A stretch of DNA of 64,000 nt. It comes from Porpolomopsis calyptriformis (Eukaryota; Basidiomycota; Agaricomycetes; Agaricales; Hygrophoraceae). The notes below the pieces were generated by a model, which was not told the DNA's origin, made no database searches, and saw only the letters and a list, made by a program, of their open reading frames with translations. The stretch is taken from contig OX621171.1 of the NCBI GenBank assembly GCA_951640195.1, positions 1,612,001 through 1,676,000 on the forward strand, read 5' to 3'. The stretch's first letter is position 1. Each line of letters opens with the position of its first letter. Positions 56,277 to 64,000 of the stretch are shown here, piece by piece. Position numbers and translations under genes: made by a program.

Positions 56277-56639
56277 GATGCTCTCATCGTCCCAGTACTA
56301 TCTGGCTGGCCAGATTGATGTCGACCACAATGCAATTATTTGCATTTTGATATCACCCTCTGGGCGTAAAGAGTGATGATTCCTTCTGAATTAAGTTTCA
56401 CTTCTACAAAGAAGTTGTTCTGCGGGTTGAATCCGTTGCGTGCCTCTGCTGAGAGTTTAGGGAATATGGGCATGAACGGTGTCATGAAATTGGTGTTCAC
56501 TCTCTTTTAAAATTCCTCTCTTTTCTTCATTCTTTTCTTTTCTTTCTTATGCCGATTCTTTTGGGAGGGAGGCTGTCTTTATTGGCAGCAGAAACTACTT
56601 GTACAAAAGGAGGAGTCCATGTCCGACTAGCTAATTATA

Positions 56640-57471
56640 CTAGTCCGTCTTGGCAATCTCCTGCACCATACTATCCCTCAAGAACTCTACAAAACTCGAG
56701 ACTACTTGACCATCTAATGCGGCCAACTTATTACCCCAGTAAATTGCCCCATTGGTGTCACCACCGGAGGCCTGCAACTCGGCAGCCTTCCCTTCGACGA
56801 AACCCATCGCTATCTTTCTCGCTTCCTCACCCAACCAATCATTGGTGGGACTCCACAACAAACTGGGAGGAACTTCTTCCTCCTCGATCTTGACGTTGAC
56901 GTTAGTCAACGACAATGACAAGTCTTCGACTAAAAAAGACAGGGAATCAGCAACTATGAAGAGAGCGAGAGAGTTAAAGGCTCACCACTAGACAAAACAC
57001 TTGTTGGACCAGGGGTCCAAGGACGGAAAGGGGGGCTGGTAGCCAAGTCCTCAGGCTTAGCATCATCAAAGGGGAGGGGATACCCCCAACGGTCGGAACT
57101 CCAATCAACTTGCTCCTCCAAAGGGAGCTTGGAGGGGGGAGGAGGGGCGTCATCATCCCAAGCTAAAAAGGGAAAGCCTATTATCAATAAACACAGACTA
57201 ATAAAGACAAAACAAGATACATACCAAGCGGATCCTCCATCAAGCCACAAACATGCTGGATTGGCCAGCGAACATACGGACACTTTCTGACCTTATGCTT
57301 GCCACCGCAAGCAAAACAAGAGAAGGAAGACCAGCAGAGGTCGGCATCGGAAGGGATGCACTAAAGGTAGTAATGAAACGAATCGCAATTGAGAAAGACA
57401 GGAGCGGTGCGGTGCACCACTCCAGACTGCTTGAAGAATCGAACGTAGTGGCCTTGGTGGGAAGAAGTCAT
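56640..57471 (-). pseudogene. LTR-borne zinc-knuckle gene, copy 3 (one early stop)
   Basis: It has the same three-exon structure as copy 4. From ATG 57471 the frame is open to a TAG in exon 1, after SFHYYL, where the intact copy has Gln. The next codon also differs by C to T. Exons 2 and 3 read through to the TAG at 56640. Confidence 0.8.
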
Positions 57472-57977
57472 GATGATTGACGAGGATTGAACTGAAGCGT
57501 AGGGATACAACCCCACATCTTTTATACACTCAGACACAAAGGGAAGACCAAAAGGAGGTTCCTCAGTCAAAGAAGAGAAACCTGATACGCTGGGCAAGAG
57601 ATAGAAACAACGGCGATCTCATGACCAGAAGAACAATAGAAACCAGTCATGAGATAACACAGCCTCATTCTGCGGAAGGCTATGCCCAATAGAATTGAGT
57701 CATCAGAAGTACACAGCCTTTTGCAGAATGACTAGGAACAATGGCAAACCTTAATTGAAGGCTGTGAACAATAGAAAATGGGGTGACTGCGGAGGCTGAC
57801 TCATAATGACTCCTATTTTAGAAATACTATATAAACCCTGAGGGCGAAGCGGATCATCACTTCGTCCTCCTGTGAGATTACTTGTAGTAGCACGAACGCA
57901 ATCAGAATCATCAGACTTCTTTTCCATCAGAACAAGAAAAGAGAAACATAAACCCATAACTACTGAGCCAATCGTTC

Positions 57978-58187
57978 ATGCCCATATTCCCTAAACTCTC
58001 AGCAGAGGCACGCAATGGATTTAACTCACAGAACAACTTCTTTGTAGAAGTAAAACTTAACTCAGAAGGAATCATCACCCTTTACGAGGACGTCCCCGTC
58101 AGGACTTTCTTCTACATCCTACTAGACTTATTAAGCTCCAAGGCCTGCCTTGTGATTGATGAAAAGACTTGCAACTACAGTTGTGAC
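57978..58187 (+). CDS. Conserved ORF running through R/U5 to the LTR end
   Basis: MPIFPKLSAEARNGFNSQNN starts at 57978, downstream of the TATA box, and stays open to the LTR end (KTCNYSC). Equivalent peptides are open in copies 1 (18390-18590) and 2 (24530-24745), with mostly conservative changes. It may be the N-terminus of a protein that continued into the internal region of the full element. No full-length element is present to test this. The reading past 58188 into flanking DNA is artefact. Confidence 0.35.
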
Positions 58188-58692
58188 AAACGGTTGGCTC
58201 AGTAGTTATGGGTTTGTGTTTCTCTTTTCTTGTTCTAATGGAAAAGAAGTCTGATGATTCTGATTGCGTTCGTGCTACTACAAGTAATCTCACAGGAGGA
58301 CGAAGTGATGATCCGCTTCACCCTCAGGGTTTATATAGTATTTCTAAATTAGGAGTCATTATGAGTCAGCCTCCACAGTCACCCCATTTTCTATTGTTCA
58401 CAGCCTTCAATTAAGGTTTGCCATTGTTCCTAGTCATTCTGCAGAAGGCTGTGTTGTTCCAATGACTCAGTTCTATTGGGCATAGCCTTCCGCAGTATGG
58501 GGCTGTGTTGTCTCATGACTGGTTTCTATTGTTCTTCTAGTCATGAGATCGCCATTGTTTCTATCTCTTGTCCGGCGTATCGGGTTTCTCTTCTTTGACT
58601 GAGGAACCTCTTTTTGGTCCTCCCTTTATGTCTGGGTGTATAAAAGGTGTGGGTTATATCCCTACACTTCAGTTCAATCCTTGTCAATCATC

Positions 58693-59519
58693 ATGACTCC
58701 CTCCCACCAAGGCCACTATGTCCGATTCTTCAAGCAGTCTGGAGTGGTGCACCGCACTGCTCCTGTCTTTCTTGATTGCAATTTGTTTCACTACTACCTC
58801 CAGCGCATCCCCTCCAACGCCGACCTCTGTTGGTCTTCCTTCTCCTGCTTTGCCTGCGGTGGCAAGCACAAAGTCAAGAAGTGTCCGTTCGTTCACTGGC
58901 CAATCCAGCATGCTTGCGCCTTGATGGAGGATCCGCTTGGTAAGTACTTTGTTTTGTCTTTATTAGTCTGTGTTTGTTGATAATAGGCTTTCCCTTTCTT
59001 AGCTTGGGATGATGACGCCCCTCCCCCTACTTCCCAGCTCCCTTCGGAGGAGCAGGTTAATTGGGGGTCCGACAAGTGGGCCAACTCTCTCCCTTCTGTC
59101 AAGAAGGAGGCAGTCAACTGGGCTGCCAGTCCCCCTTTCCGTCCTTGGACCCCTGGTCCAATGAGTTCTTTATCTAGTGGTAAGCTCTCAATTCTCTCGC
59201 CCTCTTCATGATTGTTGACTCTTTATTCTCAGTGGAAGATTTGTCATCATTGACCAATGTCAACGTCAAGATCGAGGAGGAAGAAGTTCCTCCTAGTTTA
59301 TTATGGAGTCCCACTAACGATTGGTTGGGTGAGGAAGCGAGAAAGATAGCAATGGGTTTTGTCGAAGGGAAGGCTGCCGAGTTGCAGGCCTCCGGTGGTG
59401 ACACTAATGGGGCAATCTACTGGGGTAATAAGTTGGCCACTTTAGATGGTCAAGTAGTTTCTAGTTTCGTAGAGTTTTTGAGGGACAGTATGGTGCAGGA
59501 GATTGCCAAGACGGACTAG
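58693..59519 (+). CDS. Intact LTR-borne zinc-knuckle protein, three exons
   Basis: Exons 58693-58939, 59003-59179 and 59233-59519 total 711 nt (236 residues) with GTAAGT/AG and GTAAGC/AG introns and consistent phases. Exon 1: MTPSHQGHYVRFFKQSG, DLCWSSF and CFACGGKHKVKKC, a C-x2-C-x3-H-x4-C knuckle-like motif, then WPIQHAC. Exon 2: acidic start then Pro-rich (SPPFRPWTPGP). Exon 3: VNVKIEEEEVPPSLLW, NDWLGEEARKIAMGF and a helical C-terminus ending AKTD. Function is unknown; nucleic-acid binding is a guess from the knuckle. It lies within the U3 of a 1.7-kb LTR, antisense to that LTR's transcription. Conservation of splicing in four copies argues it was selected. Confidence 0.8.
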
Positions 59520-59680
59520 TATAAATAGTTAGTCGGACATGGACTCCTCCTTTTGTACAAGTAGTCTCTGCTGCCAATAAAGACAGCCCCCCCCTTCCAA
59601 AGAGAACAGGCATAAGAAAGAAAAGAAAAGAATGAACAAAAGAGAGGAATTTTAAGAGAGTGAACGCCAATTTCATGACA

Positions 59681-59921
59681 GTAAGTGCAACGACAATACT
59701 CTGAAGGACGTTACACCCTTTCCTGACCAAGACCAGATCAGATATGATGTGGCTGGTAGAACAATAAGGTCAAAAATCGACCTATCAGATGCTTATGAGC
59801 AGGTACAGACAGTACCTGAAGACGTGCATAAAAGCGCATTTGCAACTATATATGGCACCTACATGAGCCATACAATGCAGATAGGAGACTGCAACGCACC
59901 CGCTACATTCCAGCAGGTAAT
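59681..59921 (+). pseudogene. Ty3/Gypsy reverse transcriptase fragment
   Basis: The plus strand reads DNTLKDV, DQDQIRYDVAGRTIRSKIDL, SDAYEQVQTVPEDVHKSAFA, YGTYMSH and MQIGDCNAPATFQQ, a Gypsy RT block of a lineage distinct from Gypsy-1 and Gypsy-2. It is cut on the left by the 1.7-kb LTR and on the right by the Gypsy-2 LTR. No YxDD box remains. Confidence 0.85.
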
Positions 59922-60290
59922 TGTTATGATTCGGTAGTCGAGGGTTTTACTTCTCGCATTGGAGGGGCTGATAAGGAATATGAATTCGACTAAAGAGTGG
60001 GGGAGCTAACTAGGAATCGAACTTAACCTACTGACTAGAGGTCAGGCTTTATATACTAACTACCTGAGTCACCATGAGTCAGTCGTATGTACGATTACAA
60101 AGCGGAATCCAGAATGTGACTAGTGAAGAGTCACAAAAAGAATAACGGAAACGGAATGTGACTCGTGAAGAGTCGGAAAGAAGGTACATGTGACTAGTCT
60201 TTATATATACAGTGGTAAAGCAGAAGGGTGAACAGAACAAAGACTAATCAAGTATGACTAAAAGGAAAAAGGAAAAAAGTGTCCATGACA
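59922..60290 (-). repeat. Gypsy-2 3' LTR
   Basis: This 369-bp segment starts TGTTATGATTCGG and ends CCATGACA. It has a TATATATA box near 60205 for minus-strand transcription, duplicated GTGACTMGTGAAGAGTC blocks at 60117-60180, and a GTGTGGGTGTA polypurine-like stretch just inside on the minus strand (60291-60301). The solo LTR at 1938-2304 is the same family. The 5' partner lies outside the window. Confidence 0.85.
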
Positions 60291-60371: not shown

Positions 60372-60950
60372 CTAAGACAAGTCCTTGTCGGAGACGGCGG
60401 TCGACAGGGAAATAATGTCGGCCAGGAAAGTATCGTCGTCGTTGGGGATGGTGATGGGGTTTGACGACGAACCGGGGGGAACGATGAGCGGACCTGGGAA
60501 AACAGGGGGAGTGGGGGAATCGAGATGGGGAAGTACCTTTGCAACTTCTTCGTATCTCGCCTCCCAATGCTTGGCCTGTTCTCGCCAATATTCGCTCTCT
60601 CTTCTCTTTCCGTCCAAGCTCATTCCTTGATTATATAACTCTTCGTTCAATCTCGCGATTTCGTTCTTGTAATATTCGACGTCCTTCTTGAACGACTCAA
60701 TGATCTGCTCAGGTGGGATGGGTGGTGCGACGATTTCCTCTGGCCATGTGGCTAGGTCCCGATTACATGCGCGTCGGTTGTGTTGCCAGAGTTGTCCGGC
60801 GAGCTCAGCTTCACCGTAGGCGGAGGAGGTAGAAGTGAGTGGAGGGAGAGCGCGACGAGGGGGTTGTCCTCCAGTGGACATACGAGGAGCATGGGGTGGA
60901 CGACCACCAGTAGACTTGCGGGCAGTTTGGTGAGAGTGTTCTGCGGGCAT
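60372..60950 (-). CDS. Gypsy-2 accessory ORF with histone H3 tail mimic
   Basis: An intact 192-codon frame from ATG 60950 to TAA/TAG at 60372 lies between pol and the 3' LTR. Residues 8-16 are QTARKSTGG, identical to histone H3 residues 5-13 including Lys9 and Ser10. Residues 22-35 (PRMSTGGQPPRRAL) repeat the pattern of H3 8-20 with Met at the Lys9 position. Residues around 85-135 (IIESFKKDVEYYKNEIARL and SEYWREQAKHWEARYEEVA) look like a coiled coil, and the end is Pro/Ser-rich then acidic. The upstream pol of the same element ends in a chromodomain, the fold that reads methylated H3. Binding by that chromodomain or by host HP1 is inference. The ORF position corresponds to env or other accessory genes in related elements. 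Confidence 0.8.
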   Translation of the reverse strand: MPAEHSHQTARKSTGGRPPHAPRMSTGGQPPRRALPPLTSTSSAYGEAELAGQLWQHNRRACNRDLATWPEEIVAPPIPPEQIIESFKKDVEYYKNEIARLNEELYNQGMSLDGKRRESEYWREQAKHWEARYEEVAKVLPHLDSPTPPVFPGPLIVPPGSSSNPITIPNDDDTFLADIISLSTAVSDKDLS

Positions 60951-61113: not shown

Positions 61114-64000
61114 TCATTCTTTCACATGGAGGAGGTTCTTCTTCGGCTCCCAAGTTGCTTCTTCAATGGGATAGCTGACCCATTTGACCAAATACGTACG
61201 ACGTCGGGTAGACCCGTGGTGTTGGAGAATTTGTTCGACCTCATATTCTTCTTTCTCTTGAATGACATCCGGAGGTGGGCAGAGATTATCGTCTACTTCT
61301 TCTGGATGGAGATCGGAGTTAATGTTAGCGGGTCTCAGGAGTGAAACGTGAAAGACGTCGTGTATTTTCCATGATAAGGGGAGGGCCAGGTGATAAGAGA
61401 CTTTTCCGATTCTTTCTAGAACTTTGAATAGTCCAGTGCGTCGGACATTGAGTTTAAGAGTTGGACGACCTGTTTTTAAGTTACGGGTATCAAGATAAAC
61501 AAATTGACCTATTTGGAGTTGGGTATCTTTCCGTTTGCGATCTGCGAAGCGTTTCATGGTTTCGGCCATTGTCTCCAGAGCTTTTGCGGCTTCTTCACGG
61601 GCTTCTATGAGATGATCGTGAAAGGCATCTGCTGTGGGATTGGGAGTAGGGGTTGCGGGGATAGATGGGACAAAGGGATGTTGGCCAGTATCAAGGTAAA
61701 AGGGAGTGTGTTTCATCGAAGAGTGTTGTCAGTTATTATATGTGAATTCAGCTGGGGATAGCCAGTTGGACCAATCATCTTGTATAAAGTTTGTATATAA
61801 ACGAAGGTATTGTTCAAGTTCTTGATTGGTGCATTCCATTTGACCATCAGTTTGGGGATGATAAGTGGTGGATAGACCAGAGATGATTCCCAAATGAGTG
61901 TTGAGAGCTTTTGCGAATTTAGAAGCGAACTGAGTTCCTTGATCGGTTATGATCTTCTTTGGCCAGCCGTGGTGTTTCCATACATTGTCCCTAAAAAGTT
62001 TTGCGACTCCTTCTGCAGAAATGTTTGAAGTCGTCGGAATGAAATGAGCGCGTTTGGTAAAGCGATCAACAACAACTAAGACAGCATCGTAGCCAGATGA
62101 TTGGGGGAGTTCCATGATTAGATTGGTGGTGATTTCTTCCCAAGGTCGAGATGAAGGGGGAATGGGTTCCAGGAGACCTGCAGGCTTCGAAGGATAAAGC
62201 TTGACTTGTTGGCAGGTCGGACAGGATGATACGAATACACGGATGTCAGGGGCAGCACTACTCCAGGTGTAGTTCCGCAACACAAGCTCACGTGTCTTCT
62301 CAATTCCGGGATGGCCTCCATGGGGTAGGGAGTGGGTCAATCGAATTATCTCTGTGCATAGTGATACGTCCGCTGGCACGACAATACGATCTCCTGCATC
62401 TCTCACAATTCCGTCAGTGAAGGAGTAGCAGGAAGAGGGATCGGATAGTTTGATGCGAATATCCTCTGGGATTCGATTGAAGTTGGGGAAGCGAAGTCTT
62501 GACATGAAAGAGGGTTCGGACATGGAAATGATAGCATTGATAAAACGTTCAGGAGGGAGGAGGGCTCGACCTTCTAATTCTTCTTTTTCTGTACGACAGT
62601 GATCGGGTCGGCGGGAGAGTCCATCAGCTTTGTTCTTGACTCCAGGGGAATACTCGATTTTGAAGTCAAATCTGCCTAAGAATTCCATCCAACGTGCTTG
62701 TCGTCTGGAGAGGGATCTGTTCTGCATGAAATATTTGAGCGCCAAATTGTCCGTTTTTATCAATACAGTATCCCTTGCGCCTTCTAAAAGATAGCGCCAA
62801 TACTTGAGGGAAGTGACGATCGCAAGCATCTCCAGATCGTGGGTAGGATAGTTGTACTTGGCAGGGAGCAAGGATTTCGAGAAAAAGCCAACAGGGTGCC
62901 AACCATTGTCGTGTTTCTGAGACAAGACTGCGCCAATACCGAAATCAGAGGCATCGGTCTCCAAGAGATAAGGAAGGTCCGGTTGGGGGGTAAGAAGGAC
63001 AGGGGCTGTAGTGACGAGATGTTTGAGCTGTTCAAAAGCTTTTTGACACAAAGGAGACCAATCCCAAGGTTGGTCTTTTCGCAAAAGGCCACAGAGGGGA
63101 CGAACGACTGAGGAGAAACTCTTAATGTAACGACGCCAAAAGTTGGTGGTGCCAAGGAAGGATTGGAGATCTCGCAATTTCTGGGGGGTCGGCTAGTTGA
63201 TGATGGTGTCCACCTTTTTTGGGTTGATAGCGAGTTAACCCTTGCTGATAATTGTACCAAGATAGGTAACAGAGGTCTTCTCCATTTGGCATTTGACGGG
63301 TTTAGCGGATAATTGGTTTTTCTCCATGAGTTTGAGTGTTTCGTCGGTCCAGTGGCGAATTTCTTCAGGGGTGTCGCCCATGATAAGAATGTCATCAATA
63401 TAAATGTGGACACAGCCAGAGTCCAAGACGGGTTTGAAAAGAACGTCTATCATTCGTTGAAAAGATGCTGGGGAATTTCGTAGTCCAAAGAACATAACGG
63501 TCGGTTCAAAGAGTCCTCGATTGGTGATAAAAGCCGCTTTCCATTCATCGCCTTCCTTGAGTTGTATGTTGTTAAATCCCCATCGAATATCGATAACAGT
63601 AAAGAGAGAAGCAGTAGCAAGCTTCGGTACTTGGAGGATTTCCGACAAAAGGGGAAGGGGATAACGATCAGGAATGGTTCTTGAATTGATGTAGCGATAG
63701 TCCTGGATAGGATGTAGACCAGCACTGAGACCTTTGGCATTGATCTCTTCAGCCTTTTTCGCAAAGAAGAAAGGGGCAGCTTGGGGTGATTTCAATGGAC
63801 GTATTCGACCTGTTCTGAGATTCTCGTCAATAAACTTATTAAGTTCCACCTGCTCGTAGGGAGAGAGGGGATAGAGTTTTCCGACTTGAAATTTGGTGTT
63901 CGGGTAGAGGTTGATCGCATGATCAAAGGAACGTCGAGGAGGAAGTTTGTCGAATTCTGCGGTATGGAAAACACGCCAGAAAATGTGATAACGACTGGGA
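61114..64000 (-). pseudogene. Gypsy-2 pol: RT-RNaseH-IN-chromodomain, partial, three stops
   Basis: A single frame covers the window edge to 61114, broken by TAA 63235 (former Gln likely), TAG 63193 (former Trp likely) and TGA 61729. RT shows FFFAKKAEE, HPIQDYRYINSRT and VHIYIDDILIMG near 63390; RNase H LLETDASDFGIGAVLSQ near 62950; integrase zinc finger HGGHPGIEKTR..SCPTCQQVK near 62210-62320; catalytic region with VVVDRFTKRAHF, ITDQGTQFAS and QMECTNQELE; then GPF/Y-like LNVRRTGLFKVLERIG near 61440. The chromodomain at about 61120-61255 runs from EEYEVEQILQHH to EATWEPKKNL. The near-intact frame suggests recent activity. Confidence 0.92.

Follow-up and report, generated by a model that had tools for sequence, protein, structure and literature searches.

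A nine-residue histone H3K9-tail match kept under purifying selection in the third open reading frame of a basidiomycete chromovirus

In the genome of the basidiomycete Porpolomopsis calyptriformis, we found a chromovirus whose third open reading frame, ORF3, reproduces residues 5-13 of the host histone H3 tail (QTARKSTGG) close to its N-terminus, and in which this module is under purifying selection and kept while the adjoining codons drift. We read ORF3 as a selected surrogate of the H3K9 tail, carried on a helical scaffold and aimed at the system that writes and reads H3K9 methylation, most likely as a decoy; we give this reading a chance just short of even. If true, it would represent a counter-silencing histone mimic encoded by a transposon. 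Histone mimicry has so far been described for viruses and silencing factors, and with a retrotransposon that possesses the exact H3K9 tail beside its own chromodomain, transposon counter-defence against heterochromatin would become directly testable. The retention of the copied stretch beside a drifting neighbour is a hint that the element either exploits host silencing or interferes with it.

The window analysed is a stretch of 64,000 nucleotides (OX621171.1, positions 1,612,001-1,676,000, forward strand) from a 33.5-Mb genome of 17 contigs, and coordinates below are positions within it. ORF3 (60372..60950, minus strand) encodes 192 amino acids plus a stop, with its start at 60950, its last codon reaching to 60375 and its stop at 60372-60374. 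It is situated, as a sequence-only reading of this DNA had placed it, between a Gypsy pol and the 3' LTR, which measures 369 bp (59922..60290, minus strand). ORF3 is intact in the window copy although the pol of the same element (61117..63999, minus strand, continuing beyond the window) is broken into three open pieces; other copies have a longer open pol, and in the pol of another copy protease, reverse transcriptase and RNase H were identified by Pfam (RVP_2, RVT_1, RT_RNaseH). The same reading had let the element's integrase end in a chromodomain, and PF00385 indeed matches the C-terminus of pol (61123..61245, minus strand) with 44.1 bits and a Y/W/Y cage; SH3_Tf2-1 and Chromo were both recovered where the window copy's pol ends, by a Pfam scan that covered the ends rather than the integrase core. 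The 5' LTR is beyond the window's edge, at the window-equivalent positions 66605-66238, and the insertion is flanked by a 5-bp target-site duplication, ATTAC (CTCAC in the second copy examined). The LTRs were examined in two copies and measured 368-370 bp, with 14 differences in 368 between the LTRs of the window copy versus none in 370 for the second copy compared. By its LTRs, target-site duplication, domains and aromatic cage, the element is a chromovirus (Ty3/Gypsy, group I chromodomain).

Module 1 (60903..60929, minus strand) comprises ORF3 codons 8-16, CAA ACT GCC CGC AAG TCT ACT GGT GGT, within a protein that starts MPAEHSH-QTARKSTGG-RPPHAPRMSTGGQPPRRALPPL, so that Lys12 of ORF3 corresponds to H3 Lys9 and Arg11 to H3 R8. 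The identity to H3 residues 5-13 noticed by the sequence-only reading is exact, 9/9, against all three host H3 genes (L047, L117 and L118), and its judgement that such a match is unlikely to be chance was borne out: the back-translated 9-residue pattern has 70 matches in the genome, 67 in ORF3 copies and the remaining 3 in the H3 genes, versus 0 for the reversed pattern over all 33.5 Mb. The degenerate letters of the DNA pattern permit other residues, and all 70 own-genome matches translate to QTARKSTGG. The 7-residue core ARKSTGG likewise gives 70 matches, with 2 for its reversed control, and could therefore arise by chance about once or twice when taken alone; chance is excluded by the two added residues QT, by the position near the N-terminus and by the purifying selection described below. 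In viral contigs, the DNA pattern matched three times, in no case encoding QTARKSTGG.

Selection on the module was assessed from the copies of ORF3 in its own genome. A search returned 128 rows, from which 27 were set aside (8 secondary or small pieces and 19 from a second, weakly matching family) and 101 places were kept, and the window copy was aligned with 99 others to give 100 sequences. Near-full copies, defined by at least 165 readable codons, numbered 93 of the 100, and 55 of these, called open, are without an in-frame stop. Among the open copies, pN/pS was 0.052 for codons 8-16 and 1.19 for the directly following codons 17-21, next to 0.138 for codons 2-7, 0.245 for codons 22-31 and 0.199 for the whole ORF; out of 184 windows the module ranked 6 by pN and 21 by pN/pS. 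When all 93 near-full copies were taken, dead ones included, the values were 0.209 for the module, 0.687 for codons 17-21 and 0.262 for the ORF, and the module ranked 38 (pN) and 78 (pN/pS) of 184. Since dropping stop-bearing copies lowers pN everywhere, the contrast within the protein weighs more than the absolute value. The lysine at position 12 is present in 55/55 open copies, and the complete 9-mer is exact in 46/55, the exceptions being seven changes of Arg to His or Cys and two of Gly to Ser, as decay by C-to-T changes would give. The seven all concern Arg11. Arginine 8 of H3 is needed for recognition, so its replacement by His or Cys in 7/55 open copies counts against the surrogate or decoy reading. 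Directly behind the module, the place of H3 K14 is taken by Arg, Cys or His (46, 7 and 2 of the 55 open copies).

The 67 exact 9-mer copies are spread over 16 synonymous DNA haplotypes, and in 11 diverse copies the longest invariant run is Q8-G16. The module also persists in a subfamily of about 70% identity, which lies outside the 55 open copies and has another N-terminal context (MPAERIQHHS in L031): among its 8 copies, recognised by Ser7 or Glu27 marks, the 9-mer is exact in four (L031, L052, L108, L109), one change off in two and further decayed in two. An N-terminus drifting between copies, which would have spoken against a function of the match, was thus not what the copies of this one genome display. 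The expectation that ARKS is the best-conserved segment stood in part, for the module belongs to the best conserved parts of the ORF, by its rank among the open copies and its invariant run in the 11 diverse ones, without being the single best. Transitions make up 300 of the 329 polymorphic ORF3 columns and 13 of the 14 LTR differences of the window copy, six of those 13 at CpG; such a bias in ORF3 copies and LTRs is what cytosine methylation and subsequent decay would give.

The ORF3 protein itself appears to consist of a disordered N-terminus on a helical body. In a single-sequence structure model (mean pLDDT 53.7, used only for disorder versus helix), residues 1-44 had no predicted secondary structure and helices were predicted at 45-67, 80-109, 116-143 and, a short one, 175-184, with a pLDDT of 62-79 in codons 81-140. 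The two long helices of codons 80-143 (60522..60713, minus strand), predicted from this model and lying within the part shared with the sister ORF described below, probably form a coiled coil. Pfam gave no domain for ORF3 up to E 1, and in a search of PDB sequences nothing scored better than E about 1, the hits being chiefly H3 chains, with a few due to chance. A transmembrane, env-like third ORF was rejected, the highest 19-residue Kyte-Doolittle mean being 0.69.

Expression of ORF3 by splicing was also considered. In the window copy a sequence resembling a branch point and acceptor, CTAAT...TTTCACAG, sits 110 nt before the ORF3 ATG. Splicing was rejected: the AG of the acceptor is present in only 7 of the 48 copies read, it is missing in the copy compared above whose two LTRs do not differ, and in L036, among the 48, the sequence at that place is unrelated.

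The modular build of ORF3 became apparent from a sister ORF of 194 codons in another Gypsy family of the same genome (L079:68-649; L122-L133), represented by 19 rows of at least 82% identity together with some weaker matches. This sister ORF starts MSTPYSAEAQ and is without the mimic, and its likeness to ORF3 is confined to columns 81-162 (hhalign 95.8%, E 6.9e-9). Because it thus has the helical half without the mimic, ORF3 is modular, and by this comparison of sequences the ORF3 N-terminus is where the mimic was acquired or lost. Where its surroundings were read, at a single place, the sister ORF follows within about 150 nt after a pol piece of 281 residues in which no Chromo domain was found; that mimic and chromodomain go together is a pattern seen in two families only.

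Beyond module 1, ORF3 runs on with PRMSTGGQPP, in which Met24 stands in the place of H3 K9. This degenerate module 2 (PRMSTGG, 60867..60887, minus strand) has 19 of 30 nt in common with module 1, in register, a likeness equalled by 1 of 5,000 random codon draws for the same ORF in a comparison that was chosen post hoc. A parallel is offered by the mutant histone H3K9M, whose peptide is reported to inhibit Clr4; the SET domains of Clr4 and G9a bind H3K9M with SAM, and the fission-yeast chromodomains tested in that report do not bind the peptide (PMC5030085). The R-M-S-T-G-G of module 2, complete in 28/55 open copies, is identical to residues 8-13 of H3K9M, but module 2 differs upstream, where it has A/T-P and not T-A. 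The analogy is suggestive of a pseudosubstrate for SET domains, by which module 2 may add an inhibition like that of H3K9M to the action of module 1. Met24 is Met in 55/55 open copies. Arg23 is Arg in 30/55 and His in 25/55, and the subfamily of about 70% identity carries SHMSTER or similar at module 2 (SHMSTER in four copies); both the His and the SHMSTER weaken the K9M idea.

Similar modules were found in proteins of other fungi. A single-sequence search with ORF3 for relatives elsewhere gave nothing at E up to 10, and a profile of 11 ORF3 copies retrieved nine proteins (P0003-P0011) at E 6e-5 to 5.9, eight of them with E above 0.01. One each comes from Armillaria luteobubalina, A. solidipes, A. 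ostoyae, Guyanagaster necrorhizus and Daedalea quercina, and there are four others. Counted at a threshold of at least 6/9 identity, these proteins carry 2-4 modules each, 29 in total, for example RTKQTARKSTGGHAPR or QTARKSTGGRPPRAK; apart from one 5/9 match nothing lies between the true modules and the background, and shuffled proteins reached 6/9 four times in 2,000 and never higher. H3 A7, R8, K9 and G12 are retained in 29/29 modules, S10 is replaced by Thr or Gly in 3/29, and position 14 is Lys in 4/29 and Arg, His, Gly or Gln in 25/29. As the proteins were found through the module, its apparent conservation is inflated. By eye, the modules stay and the linkers differ both among P0006, P0007, P0010 and P0011 and among P0003, P0005 and P0008, which have 32-38% identity. 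Pfam detected no domain in the four of the nine proteins tested. A search of the window's genome with a single query, P0005, revealed no multi-module gene; 18 rows fall in ORF3 copies, and the best match outside them has E 0.24.

These proteins and ORF3 have in common the QTARKSTGG-type module, the frequent loss of K14 and, in some, a following R-P-P, but the multi-module proteins have 2-4 complete modules per chain and no likeness to the helical half of ORF3, which itself, with one complete module and one at 5/9 identity, stays below the at least two complete modules that define the multi-module group. That a module retaining K9 and largely lacking K14 recurs in proteins of other fungi suggests that surrogates of the H3K9 tail form a broader class. 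In its full form, the proposal would be that basidiomycetes harbour an undescribed class of such surrogates, some of them multi-module and one borne on a coiled coil in about 100 copies of a chromodomain retrotransposon, which would act as soluble, K9-methylatable and mostly K14-less decoys competing for HP1 and the H3K9 methyltransferase, the Met module of the retrotransposon also trapping the SET domain; this broad proposal is conceivable, though we consider it rather more likely to fail than to hold in all its parts.

As a decoy, ORF3 would display QTARKSTGG in its disordered N-terminus on top of the predicted helical, probably oligomerising scaffold. The host H3K9 methyltransferase would treat Lys12 as H3K9, so that ORF3 oligomers would carry several H3K9me-like ligands; these would occupy HP1-type chromodomains, the methyltransferase or both, away from chromatin, and the silencing of the element would thereby be weakened. 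In other systems, chromodomains are reported to recognise methylated peptides of G9a, GLP and ATF7IP that resemble H3K9 (PMC7618375). In the host genome, at least one Pre-SET gene piece was found by a scan that covered Pre-SET rather than its SET domain; the Chromo_shadow model for HP1 gave no match in the host genome and likewise none in the control, and its result is hence uninformative. A decoy would need abundance, and the presence of the splice acceptor in only a minority of the copies read counts against it.

The methylated tail could also dock onto the element's own chromodomain, which we rank second to the decoy and regard as rather unlikely. Methylated ORF3 would then be a ligand of its own integrase, aiding assembly or targeting of the integration complex, in line with the YWY cage in 45 of the 47 matched copies (48 searched; cage residues Y24/W45/Y48 taken from PMC3350952), with the binding of H3K9me2/3 reported for the MAGGY chromodomain (PMC3350952), and with the mimic-less sister ORF that follows a pol piece devoid of Chromo. 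This co-occurrence of mimic and chromodomain comes from just the two families, and chromodomain matches far outnumber the ORF3 copies (about 100): a first look gave 718 candidates in the genome, which include the element's own copies and any host genes, and the best 150 of the 718 were scored, all over the cut-off. The chromodomain thus does not need the mimic. The decoy is favoured over self-tethering by this excess of chromodomains and by the existence of multi-module proteins that are not known to be tied to any element.

Less probable still is that the module is directed at other users of the H3 tail, such as a Ser10 kinase, an acetyltransferase or another reader. The nine residues do span R8-K9-S10-T11, codon 13 (H3 S10) is Ser in 95/98 readable copies, and the ARKS of SARS-CoV-2 ORF8 is a reported KAT2A target (PMC10208167). 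What speaks against these users is that K9 is invariant in the open copies and in the 29 external modules, S10 giving way to Thr or Gly in three of the latter, although acetylation of K9 would still be compatible with this pattern. It is very improbable that the stretch serves solely as an H3-like nuclear localisation signal. The H3 tail is an import signal for Kap123, on which K14R is reported to have a minor effect (PMC5677370), and most ORF3 copies indeed have Arg in the K14 place; yet it is K14 and K23 that Kap123 recognises, and import was not diminished in K9Q (PMC5677370), whereas the conserved block Q5-G13 stops before the variable K14 and no counterpart of K23 was seen, which together make import unlikely as the sole reason.

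Most improbable of all is chance, or a functionless relic of captured H3 sequence, a possibility to which the nearness of the module DNA to the host H3 genes lends something, but against which stand the purifying selection, the 16 synonymous haplotypes, the persistence of the module in the subfamily of about 70% identity and the multi-module proteins elsewhere. This nearness bears on the origin of the module. All three host H3 genes have an intron, deduced from GT-AG, in the codon of Gly13, where the match ends on the right, and L047 has a further deduced intron between K4 and Q5, where it begins on the left. One module haplotype (6 copies) differs by 1 nt from L118 and the commonest one (22 copies) by 2 nt from L117, while random codon choice gave a mean minimum difference of 5.2, with 2 or fewer in about 3% of the draws. 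Sequence likeness and intron edges are compatible with H3 sequence having been captured, perhaps in the form of genomic DNA. The R-P-P after the module is nearer to some multi-module proteins than to the K-A-P of H3, so that capture via such a gene is as likely.

Compared with known systems, ORF3 resembles the viral H3-tail mimics described in PMC10208167 (influenza NS1 ARSK, SARS-CoV-2 ORF8 ARKS, adenovirus protein VII AKKRS), in which a short H3-like motif is likewise presented by the protein of a parasite. The viral motifs have 4-5 residues, whereas ORF3 has nine identical ones and comes from an LTR retrotransposon with a chromodomain at the end of its pol. Cellular H3K9 mimics in G9a, GLP, ATF7IP and SETDB1 are also H3K9-like peptides that are bound by chromodomains when methylated (PMC7618375), but they belong to the silencing machinery, whereas ORF3, a putative substrate of methylation, belongs to a likely target of silencing. 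With fungal chromoviruses such as MAGGY the element shares a Ty3/Gypsy pol with a cage-bearing C-terminal chromodomain, and it differs from them in that its pol is followed by an additional, third ORF that carries the H3-tail mimic. Among the matches listed in a literature search, no title or opening abstract concerned an H3-tail mimic in a transposon or in a fungal multi-module protein.

Judged by eye, the element has inserted into a second retroelement, within its reverse-transcriptase gene and a short way ahead of a YLDD motif (window 59656-59922 and the sequence flanking the 5' LTR on its outer side). Downstream of the element lies a large nested inverted repeat (window 56365-59660) with arms of 71 to 465 nt that are 78-95% complementary, inside which an ORF with a CCHC-like stretch was recognised, again by eye.
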